A DNA stretch of 64,000 nucleotides from Lachnospiraceae bacterium (GTDB lineage Bacteria > Bacillota > Clostridia > Lachnospirales > Lachnospiraceae): NCBI GenBank assembly GCA_017623295.1, contig JAGAPK010000033.1, positions 1 through 64,000 on the forward strand, written 5' to 3'. The notes below the pieces were generated by a model that worked only from the letters and a program-made list of their open reading frames with translations, did not search any database and was not told where the DNA came from. Made by a program: the position numbers and the translations under genes. Shown piece by piece: positions 26,106-47,310 of this stretch; position 1 is the stretch's first letter; every line of letters begins with the position of its first letter.

Positions 26106-26780
26106 ATGTATAGAGTTGAAGATAAATTTTTTTGCAGTGAAGAAGATTTTTGTCTTTTACAGGCGCGACTTGGTGCGGTGTTGAAATCAGATGCTAACCA
26201 TGATGGAAGTTATCAGATTACCAGTGTCTATTTTGATGATTGGACAAACTCTCACTTGTGGGATACGATTGATGGAACACGCGTAAGAGAGAAGTACCGG
26301 ATACGAATTTATAATGGTTCATTTGATACCATTCGTCTGGAAGTGAAGCAGAAGAAAGATAACAGGGTGTTGAAAAAGGCACGAAAAATATCCAGAGAAC
26401 AGATGGTGGATTTGTTGGAAGGCAGATGCATCGAAGATGAAGAAAATTCGCTGGATAGTCCGATAACACTTTTTAATCTGGCTATCAAAAATCGTATTCT
26501 GCGCCCAAAAACAATTGTAGAATACGATAGACAGGCATATATTTTTGATCCGGGAAATGTGAGAATTACATTAGACAGAAATCTTCGTTCGAGTGAACAG
26601 ATAGAAGCTTTTATGAACGGAGAAGATATACAATATGATCTTGTCAGAGATATAGACAGCATATTAGAGGTAAAGTATGATGAATTCCTGCCGGGATTTA
26701 TTGCTCAGTTATTAGAAAATGGCAATATGGTACAGACATCATACTCAAAATACAGAATTTGCAGAAAAATGGGAGAATAA
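26106..26780 (+). CDS. VTC-domain (polyphosphate polymerase-like) protein, copy 1
   Basis: Small VTC-domain protein of 224 residues in the triphosphate-tunnel fold. Basic and acidic tunnel residues are visible in YRVEDKFFC, TSVYFDDW, VREKYRIRIYNG, RLEVKQKKDN, VEYDRQAYIF, VRITLDRNLRSS and ILEVKYDEFLPG. In yeast the equivalent Vtc4 domain makes polyphosphate from ATP at the membrane. Here the polymerase domain stands alone, with no membrane segment, and is followed 3 bases later by a DUF4956 membrane protein. A second such pair lies at 45885-47310. Family sure, polyphosphate synthesis inferred from the fold. Confidence 0.85.
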   Translation: MYRVEDKFFCSEEDFCLLQARLGAVLKSDANHDGSYQITSVYFDDWTNSHLWDTIDGTRVREKYRIRIYNGSFDTIRLEVKQKKDNRVLKKARKISREQMVDLLEGRCIEDEENSLDSPITLFNLAIKNRILRPKTIVEYDRQAYIFDPGNVRITLDRNLRSSEQIEAFMNGEDIQYDLVRDIDSILEVKYDEFLPGFIAQLLENGNMVQTSYSKYRICRKMGE

Positions 26781-26783
26781 GAA

Positions 26784-27461
26784 ATGTCTATAAAAGACGT
26801 TATTAAAAGTAGTGTTTACGAAAGTTTAGGTGTTGGAACAGATATATCCGGAGATAAAATTCTGGTTATTTTTGTTGCAGCATGCCTGATTGGTTTGTAC
26901 GTGTATGCAGTTTATAAATTTACCAGCAAAGCTGCTTTTTATTCAAAAGATTTAAACATTACCATAGCAGGAATGCCAATTATTATTGCAGCGATTATGA
27001 TTGCTATGCAATCTAACCTTATTGTATCTCTGGGTATGGTAGGTGCGCTGTCTATTGTACGATTTCGAAATGCAATTAAGAATCCACTAGATTTATTATA
27101 TCTGTTCTGGACAATCAGTGCGGGCATTATCTGCGGTGTTGGATTGATTATGCTTTCAATTATCCTGTGTATTGTTATGACAATTATGATATTAATTCTG
27201 GAGCTGATTCCAAATTTCAAAGCTCCGGCATTGTTGATTATGCGTTCTGATGAAGATGTGGATTGGGCAGAAATCAAAACGGTAATGAAGAAGTATACCA
27301 AATCTTTTAAAGAGAAATCGCGTACACTGAAAAAGACAGAAACAGAGATTATTTTTGAAATCCGCACAACCAAAGAGGATGAATTATTAAAGGAACTGCA
27401 ACAGAGAAAAGAATTAAAACAGATTAATCTGTTGTCCTATGATGGAGAATGTCGGGTTTAA
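26784..27461 (+). CDS. DUF4956 membrane protein, copy 1
   Basis: Membrane protein of 225 residues with about four hydrophobic segments in the first 150 residues and a soluble ferredoxin-like C-terminal part. The family hallmark SLGMVGALSIVRFRNAIKNP is present, between the second and third segments, followed by LLYLFWTISAGI. It starts 3 bases after the VTC-domain gene, and the same order recurs at 46639. The constant pairing suggests that it anchors the VTC protein or forms the pore through which its polymer passes; this is inference from gene order and from the yeast VTC complex. GGAGAATAAGAA precedes the ATG. Confidence 0.85.
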   Translation: MSIKDVIKSSVYESLGVGTDISGDKILVIFVAACLIGLYVYAVYKFTSKAAFYSKDLNITIAGMPIIIAAIMIAMQSNLIVSLGMVGALSIVRFRNAIKNPLDLLYLFWTISAGIICGVGLIMLSIILCIVMTIMILILELIPNFKAPALLIMRSDEDVDWAEIKTVMKKYTKSFKEKSRTLKKTETEIIFEIRTTKEDELLKELQQRKELKQINLLSYDGECRV

Positions 27462-32072: not shown

Positions 32073-32114
32073 GTGGATAACTATGCAGTAAGGAATAAAC
32101 GTAAGAGGATAATT

Positions 32115-32849
32115 ATGTATAAAGTATCTTTGTTGGTAACAACATACAATTCTGTTGTAAATTTGCCAATTACATTAAATAGTATACAAGAACAAACATA
32201 TGAGAACGTTGAAATCATTATCGTAGATGGTAAATCGACTGATGGAACGGTTGCGTTAATTGAGCAGTTTGCGAAAGTATCTCGATATGAGGTAAAGTGG
32301 GTATCAGAGCCGGATAAAGGTCTCTATGATGCTATGAATAAAGCATATCGTATGAGCACAGGAGATATTATTGCAGTATGCAATGATAAATTGTGTCAAA
32401 AGGATTCAATTGCTTTGCTTGTAAATGCTATTGAACAGGCTGGATCGGAATGCGTTGGAGCGCATTCCGATTTAGTATACGTTAATGGCGATAAAGTGGT
32501 TCGTAGTTGGCACATGGGACAGGGAAATATTAGGCAAGGTTGGATGCCTGGACATCCGACGTTATTTTTGAAACGCGAAATTTATGAAAAATATGGACAA
32601 TACGATATTACTTATACTTGTGCTGCAGATTATGAATTCATGGTGCGTTTTTTGAAGGATGAAAAAAATAAAATTGCATATGTGCCACAAGTGCTAGTGT
32701 CGATGTTTTATGGTGGGACAAGTAATGCGGGATTGAAGAATTATTTGGTTTCTTTTAAAGAAGGATATACAGCTTTGAAGAAAAATGGTGTAAAATATCC
32801 ATTTTGGATTACGATAAAGAGAACACTGCGTGTATTAATGCAATTTTAA
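32115..32849 (+). CDS. Family 2 glycosyltransferase inside the regulatory island
   Basis: GT2 protein of 244 residues: VSLLVTTYNSVVNLPITLNS, IIVDGKSTDGTVALIEQF, EPDKGLYDAMNKA and GHPTLFLKREIYEKYG with AADYEFMVRF. This is the WcaA-like pattern of soluble sugar transferases. At the place where relatives read NADD or NSDD, the sequence reads CNDKLCQKD, so the metal site may be altered. Start ATG 32115 follows AGAGGA; the upstream ATG at 32073 has no ribosome site. It is the first gene of a possible operon with a response regulator and kinase, an unusual association. Confidence 0.82.
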   Translation: MYKVSLLVTTYNSVVNLPITLNSIQEQTYENVEIIIVDGKSTDGTVALIEQFAKVSRYEVKWVSEPDKGLYDAMNKAYRMSTGDIIAVCNDKLCQKDSIALLVNAIEQAGSECVGAHSDLVYVNGDKVVRSWHMGQGNIRQGWMPGHPTLFLKREIYEKYGQYDITYTCAADYEFMVRFLKDEKNKIAYVPQVLVSMFYGGTSNAGLKNYLVSFKEGYTALKKNGVKYPFWITIKRTLRVLMQF

Positions 32850-32876: not shown

Positions 32877-33605
32877 ATGAAAACAGTTCTGATTGTAGAA
32901 GATAATGCCAGAAGTATGGAAATGCTAACTAAAGTTGTGAAGGACATTAGGACTGATGTAGTTATTCTATCGGCTTCCAGGCGTGAAGAAGCTGAAATTC
33001 TGGCACTGAATAATAAGGTAGATTTATTTATGGTGGATATTGTTCTGGACACTTCTAATCCCGGGGATGTATCAGGAATGAAGTTTGCAGAACGCATCCG
33101 TGCTTTTCAACAGTACAAATATGCACCAATTATTTTCATTACTTCGTTAGAAGATCCTAAATTGTATGCATATAGCGACATTCATTGTTATTACTATGTA
33201 GAAAAGCCGTTCGATGCAGAAAAAATTTCAAGTGTCATTGCAGAAGCATTGGAGTTTCCCAGAAGAGAACAAGAAGAACCGTATATTTTCTTTCGAATAG
33301 ATGGCGTTTTATATAAAAAATATATTTCGGAAATAGTCTATATAGAAAATAGCAGAGCTGGACAGATTATTTATTGTACCAGTGGTAATTTAGAGCTGCC
33401 TTATAAATCTATGAAAACCATATTAAAAGAGTTGGATTCCGAACGATTTATCCAATGCAGTAGATTTACCATTATAAATCAGGATTATATTGAAAAGATT
33501 GATATAGTCAATCGCTACATACAGTTGAAAGATGTGGAAAAGGAAATTGAACTTGGGAATTCTTTTAAGAAAAATTTTTTAAAGGATGTAGTGGATGATA
33601 AGTAG
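32877..33605 (+). CDS. Response regulator with LytTR output domain
   Basis: AgrA-like regulator of 242 residues. The receiver has VLIVEDNARSMEML, the phosphorylation site DLFMVDIVLD, ITSLEDPK and YVEKPFDAEKI. The LytTR DNA-binding half has YIFFRIDGVLYKKYISEIVY, PYKSMKTILKEL and FIQCSRFTIINQDYIEKI. It overlaps the downstream kinase gene by 11 bases, so the two form a cognate pair. GGAGAGAG lies before ATG 32877. LytTR proteins usually bind two direct repeats upstream of target promoters; none was identified with confidence. Confidence 0.88.
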   Translation: MKTVLIVEDNARSMEMLTKVVKDIRTDVVILSASRREEAEILALNNKVDLFMVDIVLDTSNPGDVSGMKFAERIRAFQQYKYAPIIFITSLEDPKLYAYSDIHCYYYVEKPFDAEKISSVIAEALEFPRREQEEPYIFFRIDGVLYKKYISEIVYIENSRAGQIIYCTSGNLELPYKSMKTILKELDSERFIQCSRFTIINQDYIEKIDIVNRYIQLKDVEKEIELGNSFKKNFLKDVVDDK

Positions 33606-34899
33606 TATTAAAATTGTTGTAGAATTATTTGCGTATTTATATTGCCTGGCAGGTTTGTTTGGGAAAAAGTTCCGGCTCAGTATTCATGCGATGATATTGA
33701 TGGTGCTGGATTTGTTTGTACTGACAGGGATAAATAAATATGGATTCCCGGAATATTTGAGGTCATTGGTCTATATTGGAATGTTTATGTATGGATTGCT
33801 GTATTATAAGGAAAGTATTAAGGTGACTTTAATCAATAGTTTTGTGGCGGCAGTATTCGTTACATTTCTACAGTTGGTGTTATGTTTGCCAGCATATTAT
33901 TTGTTGGTTGAATGTCACGGACAAAAAAATATAAATGAAGTTATTATTAATCTACTATGCCTTATTATTATAATAGTAGTAAATAGAAAGTTGAATTTGA
34001 ATAAAATATCAGGTTTCTTTGCCAGAAGAAATAAGCTGGTAATTTATATTCTAATTTTTGTGTTGATCGGTCTAGGGATAAATATATATCAAATTAAAAA
34101 AAGTGGTGTACTTTTAAAAGAACAATATATACAAATTGTATACTTTGTTATTCTTTTTGCATTTACAATTAATGAATGGCAGAAGTCTAGGATGGATGCA
34201 GAAAAGAAGAAAGCGCAGTTAGAAATGAATAAGTTGTATTACGAAGCATATGATCAATTAATTTTGCTTGTTAGAGAAAGACAGCATGATATGAAAAATC
34301 ATATTAATGCGATTCTAAGTATGATACATACTACTGATAACTATGAGGAATTAGTAGCGAAACAACAAGAGTATTGTGGTTATGTTATACAGCAAAATGA
34401 AAAGACAAAACTGTTGCTATCATCAGGTAATCCGTTAATAACAGGTTTTCTATATAGTAAGATACAAGAAGCAGAAATGAAGGGAATTATTGTAGAGTAT
34501 GATTTGGGAATAAAGAAGAAAATGCTATTTCCAGAGTACGAGTTGATAGAAATGTTGGGAATTTTATTGGATAATGCCATAGAAGCATTAGAGAAAAAAG
34601 AGATACCGAAGAAACAAATATATATTTCTGTTAAAGAAAATCAAAATGAATTAGAAATTATGGTAGCTAACAATGGCATTGATTGCAAAAATGAACGTAT
34701 AGATAAATTTTTTGAAAGAGGATATAGTAGTAAAGGCGAAAATAGAGGAATAGGGTTAGCTAAGTTGAAATCTTTGGTATATGAGAAAAATGGGAATATT
34801 GTAGTAAGCAACGAACAATATCATGACGATAATTTTTTAATATTTGAGATGGTTGTACCTAAAATAATAAAATCAAAATATGTAAAAGGTTCTAGATAG
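33595..34899 (+). CDS. GHKL-type sensor histidine kinase, AgrC-like
   Basis: Kinase of 434 residues. The first 190 residues hold about six hydrophobic segments, as in peptide-sensing AgrC. RERQHDMKNHINAILSMIH carries the phosphorylated His, and MLGILLDNAIEALEKKE with GIGLAKLKSLV forms the N and G boxes of the ATP site in the GHKL (HATPase_c_5) subgroup. It overlaps the response regulator gene by 11 bases. A terminator begins inside its stop codon. It faces agrBD convergently. The ligand could be the agrD peptide, but a second AgrC-like kinase (35996) competes for that role. Confidence 0.88.
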   Translation: MISSIKIVVELFAYLYCLAGLFGKKFRLSIHAMILMVLDLFVLTGINKYGFPEYLRSLVYIGMFMYGLLYYKESIKVTLINSFVAAVFVTFLQLVLCLPAYYLLVECHGQKNINEVIINLLCLIIIIVVNRKLNLNKISGFFARRNKLVIYILIFVLIGLGINIYQIKKSGVLLKEQYIQIVYFVILFAFTINEWQKSRMDAEKKKAQLEMNKLYYEAYDQLILLVRERQHDMKNHINAILSMIHTTDNYEELVAKQQEYCGYVIQQNEKTKLLLSSGNPLITGFLYSKIQEAEMKGIIVEYDLGIKKKMLFPEYELIEMLGILLDNAIEALEKKEIPKKQIYISVKENQNELEIMVANNGIDCKNERIDKFFERGYSSKGENRGIGLAKLKSLVYEKNGNIVVSNEQYHDDNFLIFEMVVPKIIKSKYVKGSR

Positions 34900-34961: not shown

Positions 34962-34991
34962 AAACAGGACAGTTTAAATACTGTCCTGTTT
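34962..34991. terminator. Bidirectional terminator between kinase and agrD
   Basis: AAACAGGACAGT at 34962-34973 pairs perfectly with ACTGTCCTGTTT at 34980-34991. On the minus strand it is followed by a T run, so it mainly ends the agrBD transcript that comes from the right. Confidence 0.8.
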
Positions 34992-35012: not shown

Positions 35013-35141
35013 TTAATCTTCAAATGGAAATTCTGGTTCTCCAAAGAGAAAATTACTTGGGGTGCCAAATATAATAAGAATAGAAAGTGCTAAACATCCA
35101 TTACATAATTTATAAATATTCTTCTTAAGCCAATTTTTCAT
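35013..35141 (-). CDS. agrD: AgrD-type cyclic (lactone) autoinducer peptide precursor
   Basis: Minus-strand gene of 42 codons starting at ATG 35141 with GGGAGGTG seven bases upstream. The precursor has a basic amphipathic start (MKNWLKKNIYKLCNG), a hydrophobic helix (ALSILIIF), then the core GTPSNFLF followed by GEPEFPFED. This matches AgrD: a five-residue ring (here Ser29 to Phe33, S-N-F-L-F) followed by a charged E-P-x-x-P tail that AgrB recognises. The Clostridium perfringens precursor has the same spacing with CLWFT-HQPEEP. Because Ser replaces Cys, the product would be a lactone instead of a thiolactone. It overlaps the 3-prime end of agrB by 17 bases, the usual agrBD layout. Processing is inferred. 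Confidence 0.85.
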   Translation of the reverse strand: MKNWLKKNIYKLCNGCLALSILIIFGTPSNFLFGEPEFPFED

Positions 35142-35697
35142 AATATTTCACCTCCCGTACTAATTTTGTTATAGCTAACTGGAAAGTATGTAAAACTACT
35201 GTCCAGAAACTAATTAAAAGATAGCGATTCTCAGGAAAAATAAAAAATAAAATTGCAATTAAAAAGATAGCCTGAAAGGTCTGCATTTTTGCTTTTTTAA
35301 TAAAATCTTTACCAGGAGAAGGTTTTTCCTTTAAAGAAGTTGGTCCAATGTAGTAATCGATTAATGCGCATATAAGCAATATCAAGTAGATTAGTAAAGG
35401 CTGTATAGTTGCTATTTGTGGCAAAATATTAATTACTACATATAAGTAAGCAAATGAAAACAGTAAGCAAGACCAATATTTTTTCATATGAATGCCGCCG
35501 GTTTTCGTTCGAAGCAGTATGAGTGGAACTACTGCAAAGATAAAGTCAATTAACTGACCGGTAAAATAAAAGTAGACAGCGAAAAGAAGAACTTTGCTGA
35601 CATCATATAGAATGGCGGTTAGTGTATAGCGTATCAACCTAATTTGATAGTCTGTAAAATCGTATTCATTTTTTACCCAGTCCATAAGATAAGCCAT
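35125..35697 (-). CDS. agrB: AgrB-type peptide-processing membrane protease
   Basis: AgrB cleaves and cyclises the AgrD precursor in the membrane. The 190-residue form starting at ATG 35697 has the family length. Catalytic His70 and Cys77 lie in GGIHMKKYWSC with the H-x6-C spacing of Staphylococcus AgrB (His77, Cys84). Several hydrophobic segments follow, with the Lys-rich loop KEKPSPGKDFIKKAK. The frame is open 63 codons further upstream to an ATG at 35886, but AgrB proteins start near MAYLMDWVKN, so that extension was not used. It is divergent from the kinase at 35996 and followed by agrD. Confidence 0.92.
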   Translation of the reverse strand: MAYLMDWVKNEYDFTDYQIRLIRYTLTAILYDVSKVLLFAVYFYFTGQLIDFIFAVVPLILLRTKTGGIHMKKYWSCLLFSFAYLYVVINILPQIATIQPLLIYLILLICALIDYYIGPTSLKEKPSPGKDFIKKAKMQTFQAIFLIAILFFIFPENRYLLISFWTVVLHTFQLAITKLVREVKYYEKLA

Positions 35698-35995
35698 TTT
35701 TACATCATTCCTATCTATAAAATCAAAAACAATTTTCTTTATTTTAAAAATGAAATGAACGAATCGCGTGTTTTGATGCTTAAAAATAATTCGACTGACA
35801 ATAAATGACAAAAAAACTGCAAAAATTACAAATTTCTGTTTTGGATGGCACATTCGATACAAAAAATGCATGGTTCGAGCATACAAAACACAATTTGATA
35901 GAATTTGTGCAATTATGTAGTGGGTATGGTATTTGCGAATACGACCATATTTTAAGGTAAAAAAATAAAATAATACGGAATCAAAGCGAGGAAAT
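35698..35995. other. Divergent region between agrB and the second kinase
   Basis: About 300 AT-rich bases separate the agrB start from the kinase start. A minus-strand open frame continues from agrB to 35886 but looks fortuitous. I could not place a convincing promoter or LytTR direct repeats on either strand, though regulated promoters for both genes are expected here. Confidence 0.4.
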
Positions 35996-45884: not shown

Positions 45885-46577
45885 ATGCTGTCGGTAACCA
45901 GAAGTGAATTAAAATATTGGATTAGTTATCAGGATAGTTTGTTGTTGCAGGATGAAATGGCGAAATTACTTTCTTATGATTCGTATTCTGAGAATGGATT
46001 TTATCGTGTAAAAAGTCTGTATTTTGATTCTATAAATAATATCGATTATATGGAAAAATTAGCAGGAACGGAGAAACGAAAAAAAATCAGACTTCGTATT
46101 TATGATGAAGATGCTGATTTTGCCAAACTGGAACTGAAACAGAAAGAAGGCGCTTATCAGCAAAAGAAAAGCTTGCTAGTGACAAAAGAAGTGGCTAAAA
46201 AGCTGATGGCCGGAGAATATGGATGTCTGTTAGATTATCCGGAGGAAATAGCAGCCAGATTGTACGAACTTCTGGTGCTTGGAGCATATCGACCGGCAGC
46301 ACTCATTGAATATGACAGAAGGGCGTTTGTTTACAAGGAATACAGCACACGGATTACTTTTGATAAAAATGTAAGAAGCTCGGAATTATCACTTGATTTA
46401 TATGAAAAAGACATTTCATGGATTTACCGGACTAATGAAAAAGTTATTCTTGAAGTAAAATATAATGGGAAGTTGTGGATGCCCATTCAAAAGATATTGG
46501 AGAAATATAATTTGTTCAACGTTTCCATTGGAAAGTATGCAAATGGAAGACCACTTTATGAACAGTATATGATATAA
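45885..46577 (+). CDS. VTC-domain (polyphosphate polymerase-like) protein, copy 2
   Basis: Second VTC-domain protein, 230 residues. SELKYWISYQDSLLL at the start, SLYFDSINNIDY, RKKIRLRIYDED, KLELKQKEG, LIEYDRRAFVYKE, ITFDKNVRSS and VILEVKYNG line up with the tunnel-wall motifs of copy 1 (26106). Overall identity looks low, so the copies are old paralogues or separately acquired. It is followed 61 bases later by a DUF4956 gene and then two CotH-type genes. A role in making a polyphosphate-like polymer is inferred from the family. Confidence 0.85.
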   Translation: MLSVTRSELKYWISYQDSLLLQDEMAKLLSYDSYSENGFYRVKSLYFDSINNIDYMEKLAGTEKRKKIRLRIYDEDADFAKLELKQKEGAYQQKKSLLVTKEVAKKLMAGEYGCLLDYPEEIAARLYELLVLGAYRPAALIEYDRRAFVYKEYSTRITFDKNVRSSELSLDLYEKDISWIYRTNEKVILEVKYNGKLWMPIQKILEKYNLFNVSIGKYANGRPLYEQYMI

Positions 46578-46638
46578 TGTGTGCAAATGAGTCAACATAC
46601 TGACATGATTGGCACATGGCGAATGAGGGAGAAAACAA

Positions 46639-47310
46639 ATGAAAAAGCAGGATATTCTGGATTGGTTTTCGGGTAACAGCGAATCTTTAAGTGTAGAAAA
46701 AATTTTGTTTGTGCTTATTATTGCGTTAGCAGTGGCAGCAATTATTTTTGTGACCTATCGAATTACTTATCAGGGGGTAAGCTACAATAGAAAATTTAAT
46801 GTAGGAAATGTGGTTATTGTATTACTGACATCTATTATTATGCTGATGATTAGCAGTAATATGGCAATTTCTCTTGGTATGGTAGGTGCATTGTCTATTG
46901 TAAGATTCAGAACTGCGATTAAAGATCCACATGACACAATTTATATTTTCTGGGCGATTGTAGAGGGCTTGTGTGTTGGTGCACAGATTTATGAACTGGC
47001 ACTGACTTCTACTATTTTTGTGGCACTCGTATTATTGGCATTCAGTTTATATAGCAATGTGCAGAGAAAATATCTGATTATTATCAGGGGTGGAAAAGAG
47101 TTGCAGGTCAGCAGTGTGAACGAATGCATTCAGAAGCAGTATTCTAATGTAAGGGTCCGTGCTGCTAATTATCTTGACACGCATTGCGAAATGATTTGTG
47201 AAATATCCGCCAGAGGTGCTATGAAAGAAGAAGTCATAGAGAATCTGAAAGAACTTCCGAACGTGAAAAGCGTTAACTGGCTGTTGGAAACAGGAGAAAA
47301 CGTTGGATAA
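46639..47310 (+). CDS. DUF4956 membrane protein, copy 2
   Basis: Membrane protein of 223 residues with about four hydrophobic segments and a soluble C-terminal domain. It carries the same hallmark as copy 1, SLGMVGALSIVRFRTAIKDP followed by YIFWAIVEGL. GAGGGAG lies before ATG 46639. The stop overlaps the ATG of the next gene (TAATG), coupling it to the CotH-like protein. Function unknown; constant neighbour of VTC-domain genes here. Confidence 0.85.
   Translation: MKKQDILDWFSGNSESLSVEKILFVLIIALAVAAIIFVTYRITYQGVSYNRKFNVGNVVIVLLTSIIMLMISSNMAISLGMVGALSIVRFRTAIKDPHDTIYIFWAIVEGLCVGAQIYELALTSTIFVALVLLAFSLYSNVQRKYLIIIRGGKELQVSSVNECIQKQYSNVRVRAANYLDTHCEMICEISARGAMKEEVIENLKELPNVKSVNWLLETGENVG

Follow-up and report, generated by a model that had tools for sequence, protein, structure and literature searches.

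A 42-codon frame on the minus strand of a 64,000-nucleotide stretch of Lachnospiraceae DNA (the window) is, judged by its conservation among relatives, a real agrD gene, and the analysis supports its reading as an AgrD-type precursor with serine at the ring position. Comparison with relatives suggests that Ser-type signals of this kind are common, not rare. The bacterium from which the DNA comes is probably an animal-gut inhabitant.

An agrD gene overlapping agrB

The earlier note had placed a short minus-strand frame across the end of agrB, and we find the frame at exactly these coordinates (Table 1). It translates as MKNWLKKNIYKLCNGCLALSILIIFGTPSNFLFGEPEFPFED. Its start lies 17 nt inside agrB, the stop codon of which ends at 35125, and a ribosome-binding site that was rated good, GGGAGGTGA, lies 6 bases 5' of the ATG within the last codons of agrB. 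The agrB product matches the Pfam AgrB family (PF04647) with 91.6 bits against a cut-off of 23, and its catalytic pair, His70 and Cys77 (H-x6-C), is invariant in all 19 aligned rows. A search for solved structural relatives of AgrB by sequence returned none at E <= 1.

Table 1. Features of the agr region in window coordinates
Feature	Position	Strand	Remarks
Second response regulator, LytTR domain, 251 aa	31245..32000	+	
Family 2 glycosyltransferase	32073..32849	+	inside regulatory cluster
Response regulator, LytTR domain, 242 aa	32877..33605	+	overlaps kinase gene; preferred AgrA candidate
Histidine kinase, 434 aa, GHKL domain	33595..34899	+	H231-D-M-K-N; convergent with agrD; preferred AgrC candidate
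Terminator-like inverted repeat, 12 pairs	34962..34991		between convergent agrD and kinase genes
agrD	35013..35141	-	42-aa precursor, ATG start; leader 1-28, predicted ring S29-N-F-L-F33
Ser29 codon AGT	35055..35057	-	predicted ring nucleophile
AgrD tail, 9 aa			G34-E-P-E-F-P-F-E-D, C-terminal to predicted ring
agrB, 190-aa membrane peptidase	35125..35697	-	start ATG 35697
Direct repeat ATTCGATAC-N12-GTTCGAGCA	35851..35881		read on +; predicted LytTR operator
Second GHKL histidine kinase, 417 aa	35996..37249	+	divergent from agrB; rival receptor

AgrB matches were found in 62 of 145 genomes, the genome of the window included. The AgrB clade examined here consists of the window and 20 relatives, all of them from metagenome-assembled genomes and mostly on the same contigs as in the 145-genome search. 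Twelve of the 20 relatives are deposited as Lachnospiraceae, and the others carry the names Clostridiales, Butyrivibrio, Blautia, Clostridium, Bacillus and Muribaculaceae. Four records with Blautia, Bacillus, Clostridium and Muribaculaceae names (L034, L039, L045, L046) group closely with Lachnospiraceae records; some such oddly named bins are probably mislabelled.

An intact precursor frame stands beside agrB in all 21 clade loci; the case that would have spoken against the gene, an intact agrB followed by a broken agrD, was looked for and occurs in none of them. The homologous frames encode 42-44 residues. Among the 19 that were aligned, M1, L5, F33, G34, E35, P36 and P39 are invariant, and the start lies 17 nt inside agrB in 16, the overlap being at least 20 nt in L019-L021. 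When a profile of the clade AgrDs was run against 77 genomes of the genus, strong matches (E <= 1.4e-18) came from 19 of them, at 20 places that all lie at the end of an AgrB from the window clade. Nineteen of these places had themselves gone into the profile, which leaves a second copy in G007 as the only addition; there were also four weak matches, and the other 58 genomes gave no strong match. Over 12 close pairs, changes in agrD number 71, 48 and 163 at the first, second and third codon positions. NG86 estimates of dN/dS are about 0.07-0.29 in seven of nine pairs and about 0.66 in L036/L040, one pair not being computable. At the level of sequence, this pattern shows purifying selection on agrD in the clade.

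Relationship to known AgrD families

The ring and E/Q-P-x-x-P layout that the earlier note had recognised is borne out by alignment. From Ser29 it is four residues to the end of the ring, after which x-[EQ]-P-x-x-P follows (SNFLF-GEPEFP); this is the register of 70 of 73 and 92 of 97 AgrDs in the family and phylum draws described below. Comparison with AgrD family profiles, which the note had proposed, gave a divided answer. The curated profile TIGR04223 (quorum_AgrD) does not match the window AgrD, its cut-off of 19 not being reached, and it matched only three of 19 subfamily members (best E 0.037). The same profile recognises the second AgrD of the same genome with 37.9 bits, and we therefore attribute the miss to divergence of the subfamily. 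Pfam gave weak matches only, to families of unknown function. Profile-to-profile alignment with hhalign, on the other hand, joined the subfamily to ordinary AgrDs with a probability of 95.7% and an E value of 1.1e-8 over 40 columns, although the comparison set of 12 rows includes one that is itself of the G-E-P type and may help the score. In this alignment Ser29 lies over the ordinary cysteine, with S+4 corresponding to Cys+4, and GEPEFP lies over HQPEFP. Cys13 and Cys16 of the leader were considered as ring residues and rejected, being 13-16 residues ahead of Ser29 and not invariant.

A lactone ring is predicted from Ser29, and we consider it highly probable that the locus makes a lactone agr signal, whichever receptor it acts on.

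Serine and cysteine at the ring position

Within the clade, the position five residues ahead of G-E-P-x-x-P is occupied by Ser in 19 of the 21 loci and by Cys in the other two (L042 and L052). The nearest relative by AgrB (L004, the same locus as L052; 74% identity) has TGT where the window has AGT, giving AP-CNFLF against TP-SNFLF.

Wider frequencies were taken from two sampled draws, in both of which a small frame near agrB with x5-x-[EQ]-P-x-x-P was sought and the ring residue was left unconstrained. In the family draw, AgrB was found at E <= 1e-10 in 105 of 299 genomes; from among the matches listed we took 129 places, excluding the window's own genome as well as places with stops, some partial ones and the final rows, and located agrB in 128. 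The motif is present in 73 of these, among the matches listed, with Cys in 49, Ser in 21, and Thr, Ala and Pro in one each; the nucleophile is less sure in eight of the 21 Ser cases, because Cys also occurs inside the ring. The phylum draw found AgrB in 102 of 249 genomes and supplied 110 places from among the matches listed, with agrB located in 108. Here 97 carry the motif among the matches listed: Cys 47, Ser 45, Thr 3, Phe 1 and Lys 1, counts that take the second, plainly better match in four loci with two matches and include some near-copies. First matches alone give Cys 43, Ser 45, Thr 4, Phe 2 and one each of Ala, Met and Lys. The loci without the motif (55 family, 11 phylum) stand outside these counts and could shift the Ser:Cys ratio. 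The earlier note's remark that serine is known for only a few species accordingly stands for characterised peptides and fails for sequences, where the phylum draw has the two residues nearly level.

Four rings of the family draw begin with Ser directly followed by Cys (L097 SCIIM, L122 SCVIM, L160 SCIIS, L190 SCIGF), and the adjacency of the two makes the ring-closing residue ambiguous. Thr occupies the ring position in L242 (TGFWS), L271 (TGSNG) and L289 (TGNWS) of the phylum draw and in L112 (TRFLF) of the family draw; by their sequence, these AgrDs would give a threonine lactone.

Cys and Ser together account for 70/73 (family) and 92/97 (phylum) residues at the ring position; elsewhere among the 18 positions compared they never exceed 32/73 and 30/97. 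That the two are kept almost exclusively at this one position fits the need for a ring-closing nucleophile. On a quick AgrB tree of 103 rows, the distribution of Ser and Cys needs nine changes, at least six of them forced by well-supported branches. For this tree, L022-L027, L029, L032 and L196, which have a variant motif, were labelled by eye, the first of two matches was used for L001 and L051, and L030, L148 and L112 (off-register or Thr) were dropped together with the duplicate L056. Adding 92 phylum-draw rows gave a 195-row tree with 20 changes, at least ten of them forced by well-supported branches; it was made with a simpler model and a quick search, and carries a long-branch warning. 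The forced changes on both trees indicate that Ser and Cys have interchanged repeatedly. No AgrB column tied to Ser or Cys could be demonstrated among the columns listed, and since supported branches supply only six independent pairs, too few for such a test, no significance is attached to this comparison.

A broader reading of these data is that agr signals come in two standard forms, thiolactones and lactones, with about half of the AgrDs of the phylum being Ser-type, single-base flips between Ser and Cys, and AgrBs that accept either residue or re-adapt quickly. We advance it tentatively, with slightly less than even confidence; the claim that Ser is common and interchanges with Cys is based on the two sampled draws.

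Surroundings of the locus and a second agr locus

The earlier note was right to place the gene in a polysaccharide locus: the window encodes NeuB, a nucleotidyl transferase, an aminotransferase, sugar epimerases, a pyruvyl transferase and several glycosyltransferases, and the region also has two histidine kinases and two LytTR regulators. By position, the regulon may include polysaccharide genes. Two copies of a gene pair encoding a VTC-domain protein and a DUF4956 protein flank the agr region (26106-27461 and 45885-47310).

A further agr locus occurs in this genome (L001, 1303-1461 and 1483-2085 on G000:C20). Its AgrD is Cys-type (CYWYF-HQPEFP), and agrD here precedes agrB; a kinase-like gene lies ahead of the locus and a polysaccharide-type epimerase-like gene behind it. 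Given this second, Cys-type locus, a single cell may produce both a lactone and a thiolactone signal.

A conserved module of kinases, regulators and a repeat

Both window kinases contain H-D-M-K-[NH], L-L-D-N-A-I and G-I-G-L, which we take to be the phospho-acceptor box, N-box and G-box. A GHKL kinase and a LytTR regulator are linked to agrBD by gene neighbourhood, as in agr systems, and are encoded convergently on the opposite strand rather than in a single agrBDCA operon. The inverted repeat between the convergent genes was reported by the terminator scan on the plus strand only, and a run of T follows it on the minus strand too.

All 20 relatives have a homologue of the convergent kinase past agrD on the opposite strand, in 17 of them as the next gene after agrD; in L039, L042 and L045 the gap is about 1.1-1.3 kb. 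In L049 this kinase gene is broken into two frames, and in L036 and L052 it runs into a contig edge. The 242-aa LytTR regulator comes next in 14 of the 20; the region ends at a contig edge in L036, L040, L044 and L052, and the gene is absent from L034 and L046 despite about 3 kb of further sequence. The second LytTR regulator is found in ten relatives and the glycosyltransferase within the cluster in four. A second GHKL kinase diverges from agrB in 15 of 20, six times as a shorter frame of 225-272 aa, and none is found in L047, L049, L050 or L051, while L046 ends at a contig edge. The convergent kinase is also kept in ten of 11 loci whose AgrBs are more distant; seven of these loci belong to the genus and four to other families of the order, and three of those four are among the ten. 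Assembly JAMPEU01 has two agrBD copies (L037, L044), each with both flanking kinases; their AgrDs have the identical ring SFVLF, preceded by Tyr or Leu.

The intergenic direct repeat of the window comprises 31 bases, two 9-base repeats with a 12-base spacer; its distance is 153 bases to the start codon of agrB and 114 to that of the divergent kinase. AgrA is reported to have two 9-bp sites 12 bp apart in the agrP2 region (PMC10482373), and the 9-12-9 spacing in the window is the same. An element of this type begins 169-250 bases ahead of the AgrB match in 16 of 20 relatives. A matrix made by eye from the window and 12 of those 16 relatives' own regions scored 23-39 in four of eight held-out loci (L040, L044, L045, L051), the first three being near relatives of training rows. 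The held-out L047, L049 and L050 have no repeat in the region, and L046 lacks the region. The window repeat, itself part of the matrix, scores 37.0; the search for further operator copies in the window gave a next best score of 11.7, inside the maxima of five single-base shuffles (8.7-14.0). Scanning for sigma-70 promoters gave nothing informative, with five matches against 7.4 expected. What recurs as a module is an agrBD pair convergent with a kinase and LytTR regulator, in many cases together with a second kinase divergent from agrB and an AgrA-like 9-12-9 repeat between the two.

Candidate receptors

Variability in the membrane part of the convergent kinase peaks at residues 101-175 (block identities 0.29-0.41). 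With the kinase part and AgrB controlled for, divergence in its sensor tracks that of AgrD, both for residues 1-200 (partial r 0.23, p 0.009, n = 19) and for residues 76-175 (partial r 0.28, p 0.0035, n = 19), where the p values come from permutation and the two regions are those that were tried. Since the raw correlations with AgrD hardly differ between the sensor part (0.64) and the kinase part (0.63), the additional signal is a modest one. The sequence comparisons lean towards the convergent kinase as the receptor.

Rather unlikely in our judgement, although it is the first alternative to be weighed, is that the same lactone is sensed by the divergent kinase and that the convergent kinase and its regulator answer to something else. 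The divergent kinase adjoins agrB across a shared control region, and its N-terminal half is very variable, 25-residue blocks having mean identities of 0.21-0.40 in residues 1-200 versus 0.34-0.70 in 226-417 (n = 10); agr loci are described as hypervariable in agrB, agrD and agrC (PMC10482373). Under the same controls, however, its sensor shows no tracking of AgrD (partial r -0.22, p 0.91), in a comparison of few sequences (n = 10), and its patchy and often shortened occurrence among the relatives also counts against it.

Proposed circuit and remaining alternatives

We favour, with some reserve, a lactone-type agr circuit in the polysaccharide locus, with the convergent kinase as receptor, the adjoining LytTR regulator as its partner and the direct repeat as operator. 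The reserve reflects two relatives that lack the regulator although their sequence would have space for it, three in which the kinase is not the next gene, and the nearly equal raw correlations. In this circuit, agrB and agrD would be carried on one transcript, and Cys77 of AgrB would cut AgrD after Phe33. The hydroxyl of Ser29 would then attack the acyl-enzyme, giving the five-residue lactone Ser-Asn-Phe-Leu-Phe, and a second peptidase would trim the leader to a short tail, e.g. Thr-Pro; the eight Rce1-like matches in the genome make an MroQ-like leader peptidase possible. The exported peptide would be sensed by the convergent kinase, which would phosphorylate the adjoining LytTR regulator. 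The latter would bind the repeat, raising agrBD and/or the divergent kinase, and probably also raise nearby surface-polysaccharide genes. Co-transcription, cyclisation, cleavage sites, receptor, regulator and regulon are the parts of this circuit that we infer.

It is improbable, in our estimate, that the Ser precursor is processed to a linear product, or to a lactone that soon rearranges or hydrolyses. AgrB1 and AgrB2 of S. aureus are unable to process Ser-containing AgrD (PMC10482373), and a synthetic lactone analogue of a Listeria peptide was active, but 22 h at 37 C and pH 7.0 left 36% of it hydrolysed and 48% rearranged (PMC11297923). Against this speak the existence of natural lactone AIPs (PMC5322536, PMC12312760) and the near-exclusive use of Ser or Cys at the ring position in both draws. 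Scarcely credible is a chance open frame or decayed agrD: the frame is short and unnamed by family profiles, yet its intactness throughout the clade, its constant length and start, its invariant positions, the third-position excess and the mostly low dN/dS refute this for the clade.

Comparison with known systems

In reviews, AIPs are described as thiolactones with few lactone exceptions (PMC10482373, PMC12312760), and a Listeria paper notes that Ser sometimes takes the place of the central Cys (PMC4916163). Ser-type AgrD is thus already known; the frequency of Ser, the window subfamily and the module are without a report that we could find in the literature surveyed at title and abstract level. 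Titles and abstract openings, in which subscription papers and preprints are thinly covered, gave no census of Ser versus Cys in AgrD and nothing on Lachnospiraceae AgrD; the partial texts of PMC10838665, PMC10885120 and PMC8748961 hold nothing further on Ser in AgrD.

If Ser-type signals are about as frequent as the Cys-type, the lactone "exceptions" reflect the choice of species studied, and surveys using the current AgrD profile overlook at least the window subfamily. A flip between Ser and Cys would, if the interchange is real, alter signal lifetime and cross-talk while leaving the remainder of the ring untouched. The SNFLF/CNFLF pair, with AgrBs 74% identical, is a natural test of one AgrB closing both ring types, in contrast to AgrB1 and AgrB2 of S. 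aureus, which fail at Ser (PMC10482373). The locus also places a quorum signal in a surface-polysaccharide locus of uncultured bacteria, which are probably Lachnospiraceae.

Lactone AIPs are known from S. (pseud)intermedius and E. faecalis (PMC12312760, PMC3673130), and NSA[SSWVA] is listed for C. difficile agr2 (PMC12312760). The S. (pseud)intermedius AIP, RIPT[STGFF], resembles the predicted window peptide in having Ser, a five-residue ring and an exocyclic tail; its agrBDCA genes form one locus, whereas the kinase and regulator of the window are on the other strand (PMC12312760). E. faecalis FsrB/FsrD likewise makes a Ser lactone peptide, GBAP, from an agr-like system, but its ring has nine residues and fsrD lies inside fsrB in another frame (PMC3673130, PMC12312760). 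The AgrD tail of the window and its subfamily, at nine residues, is shorter than the 14-15 residues of S. aureus, where tail length matters (PMC10482373).

Among clostridia, the Ser-type AgrD of C. thermocellum yields a lactone pentapeptide confirmed by LC-MS/MS (PMC5322536). This precursor, Clo1313_2818, shares with that of the window the S+4 ring and a conserved proline past the cleavage site; it lacks an apparent agr operon, whereas the window agrD stands beside agrB and a kinase/regulator pair, and the mature window peptide, unlike the pentapeptide, may carry an exocyclic tail (PMC5322536). Separate agrBD and agrCA operons are described in clostridia (PMC10301443, PMC12312760). Clostridium acetobutylicum, like the window, has its signal and receptor genes in separate transcription units, and differs in using Cys and a six-residue ring (PMC10301443). 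Closest to hand, the precursor plan of the window AgrD is shared with the TIGR04223 AgrDs and with the second locus of its own genome, the latter differing in its Cys and in having agrD upstream of agrB, while the window subfamily falls below the TIGR04223 cut-off.
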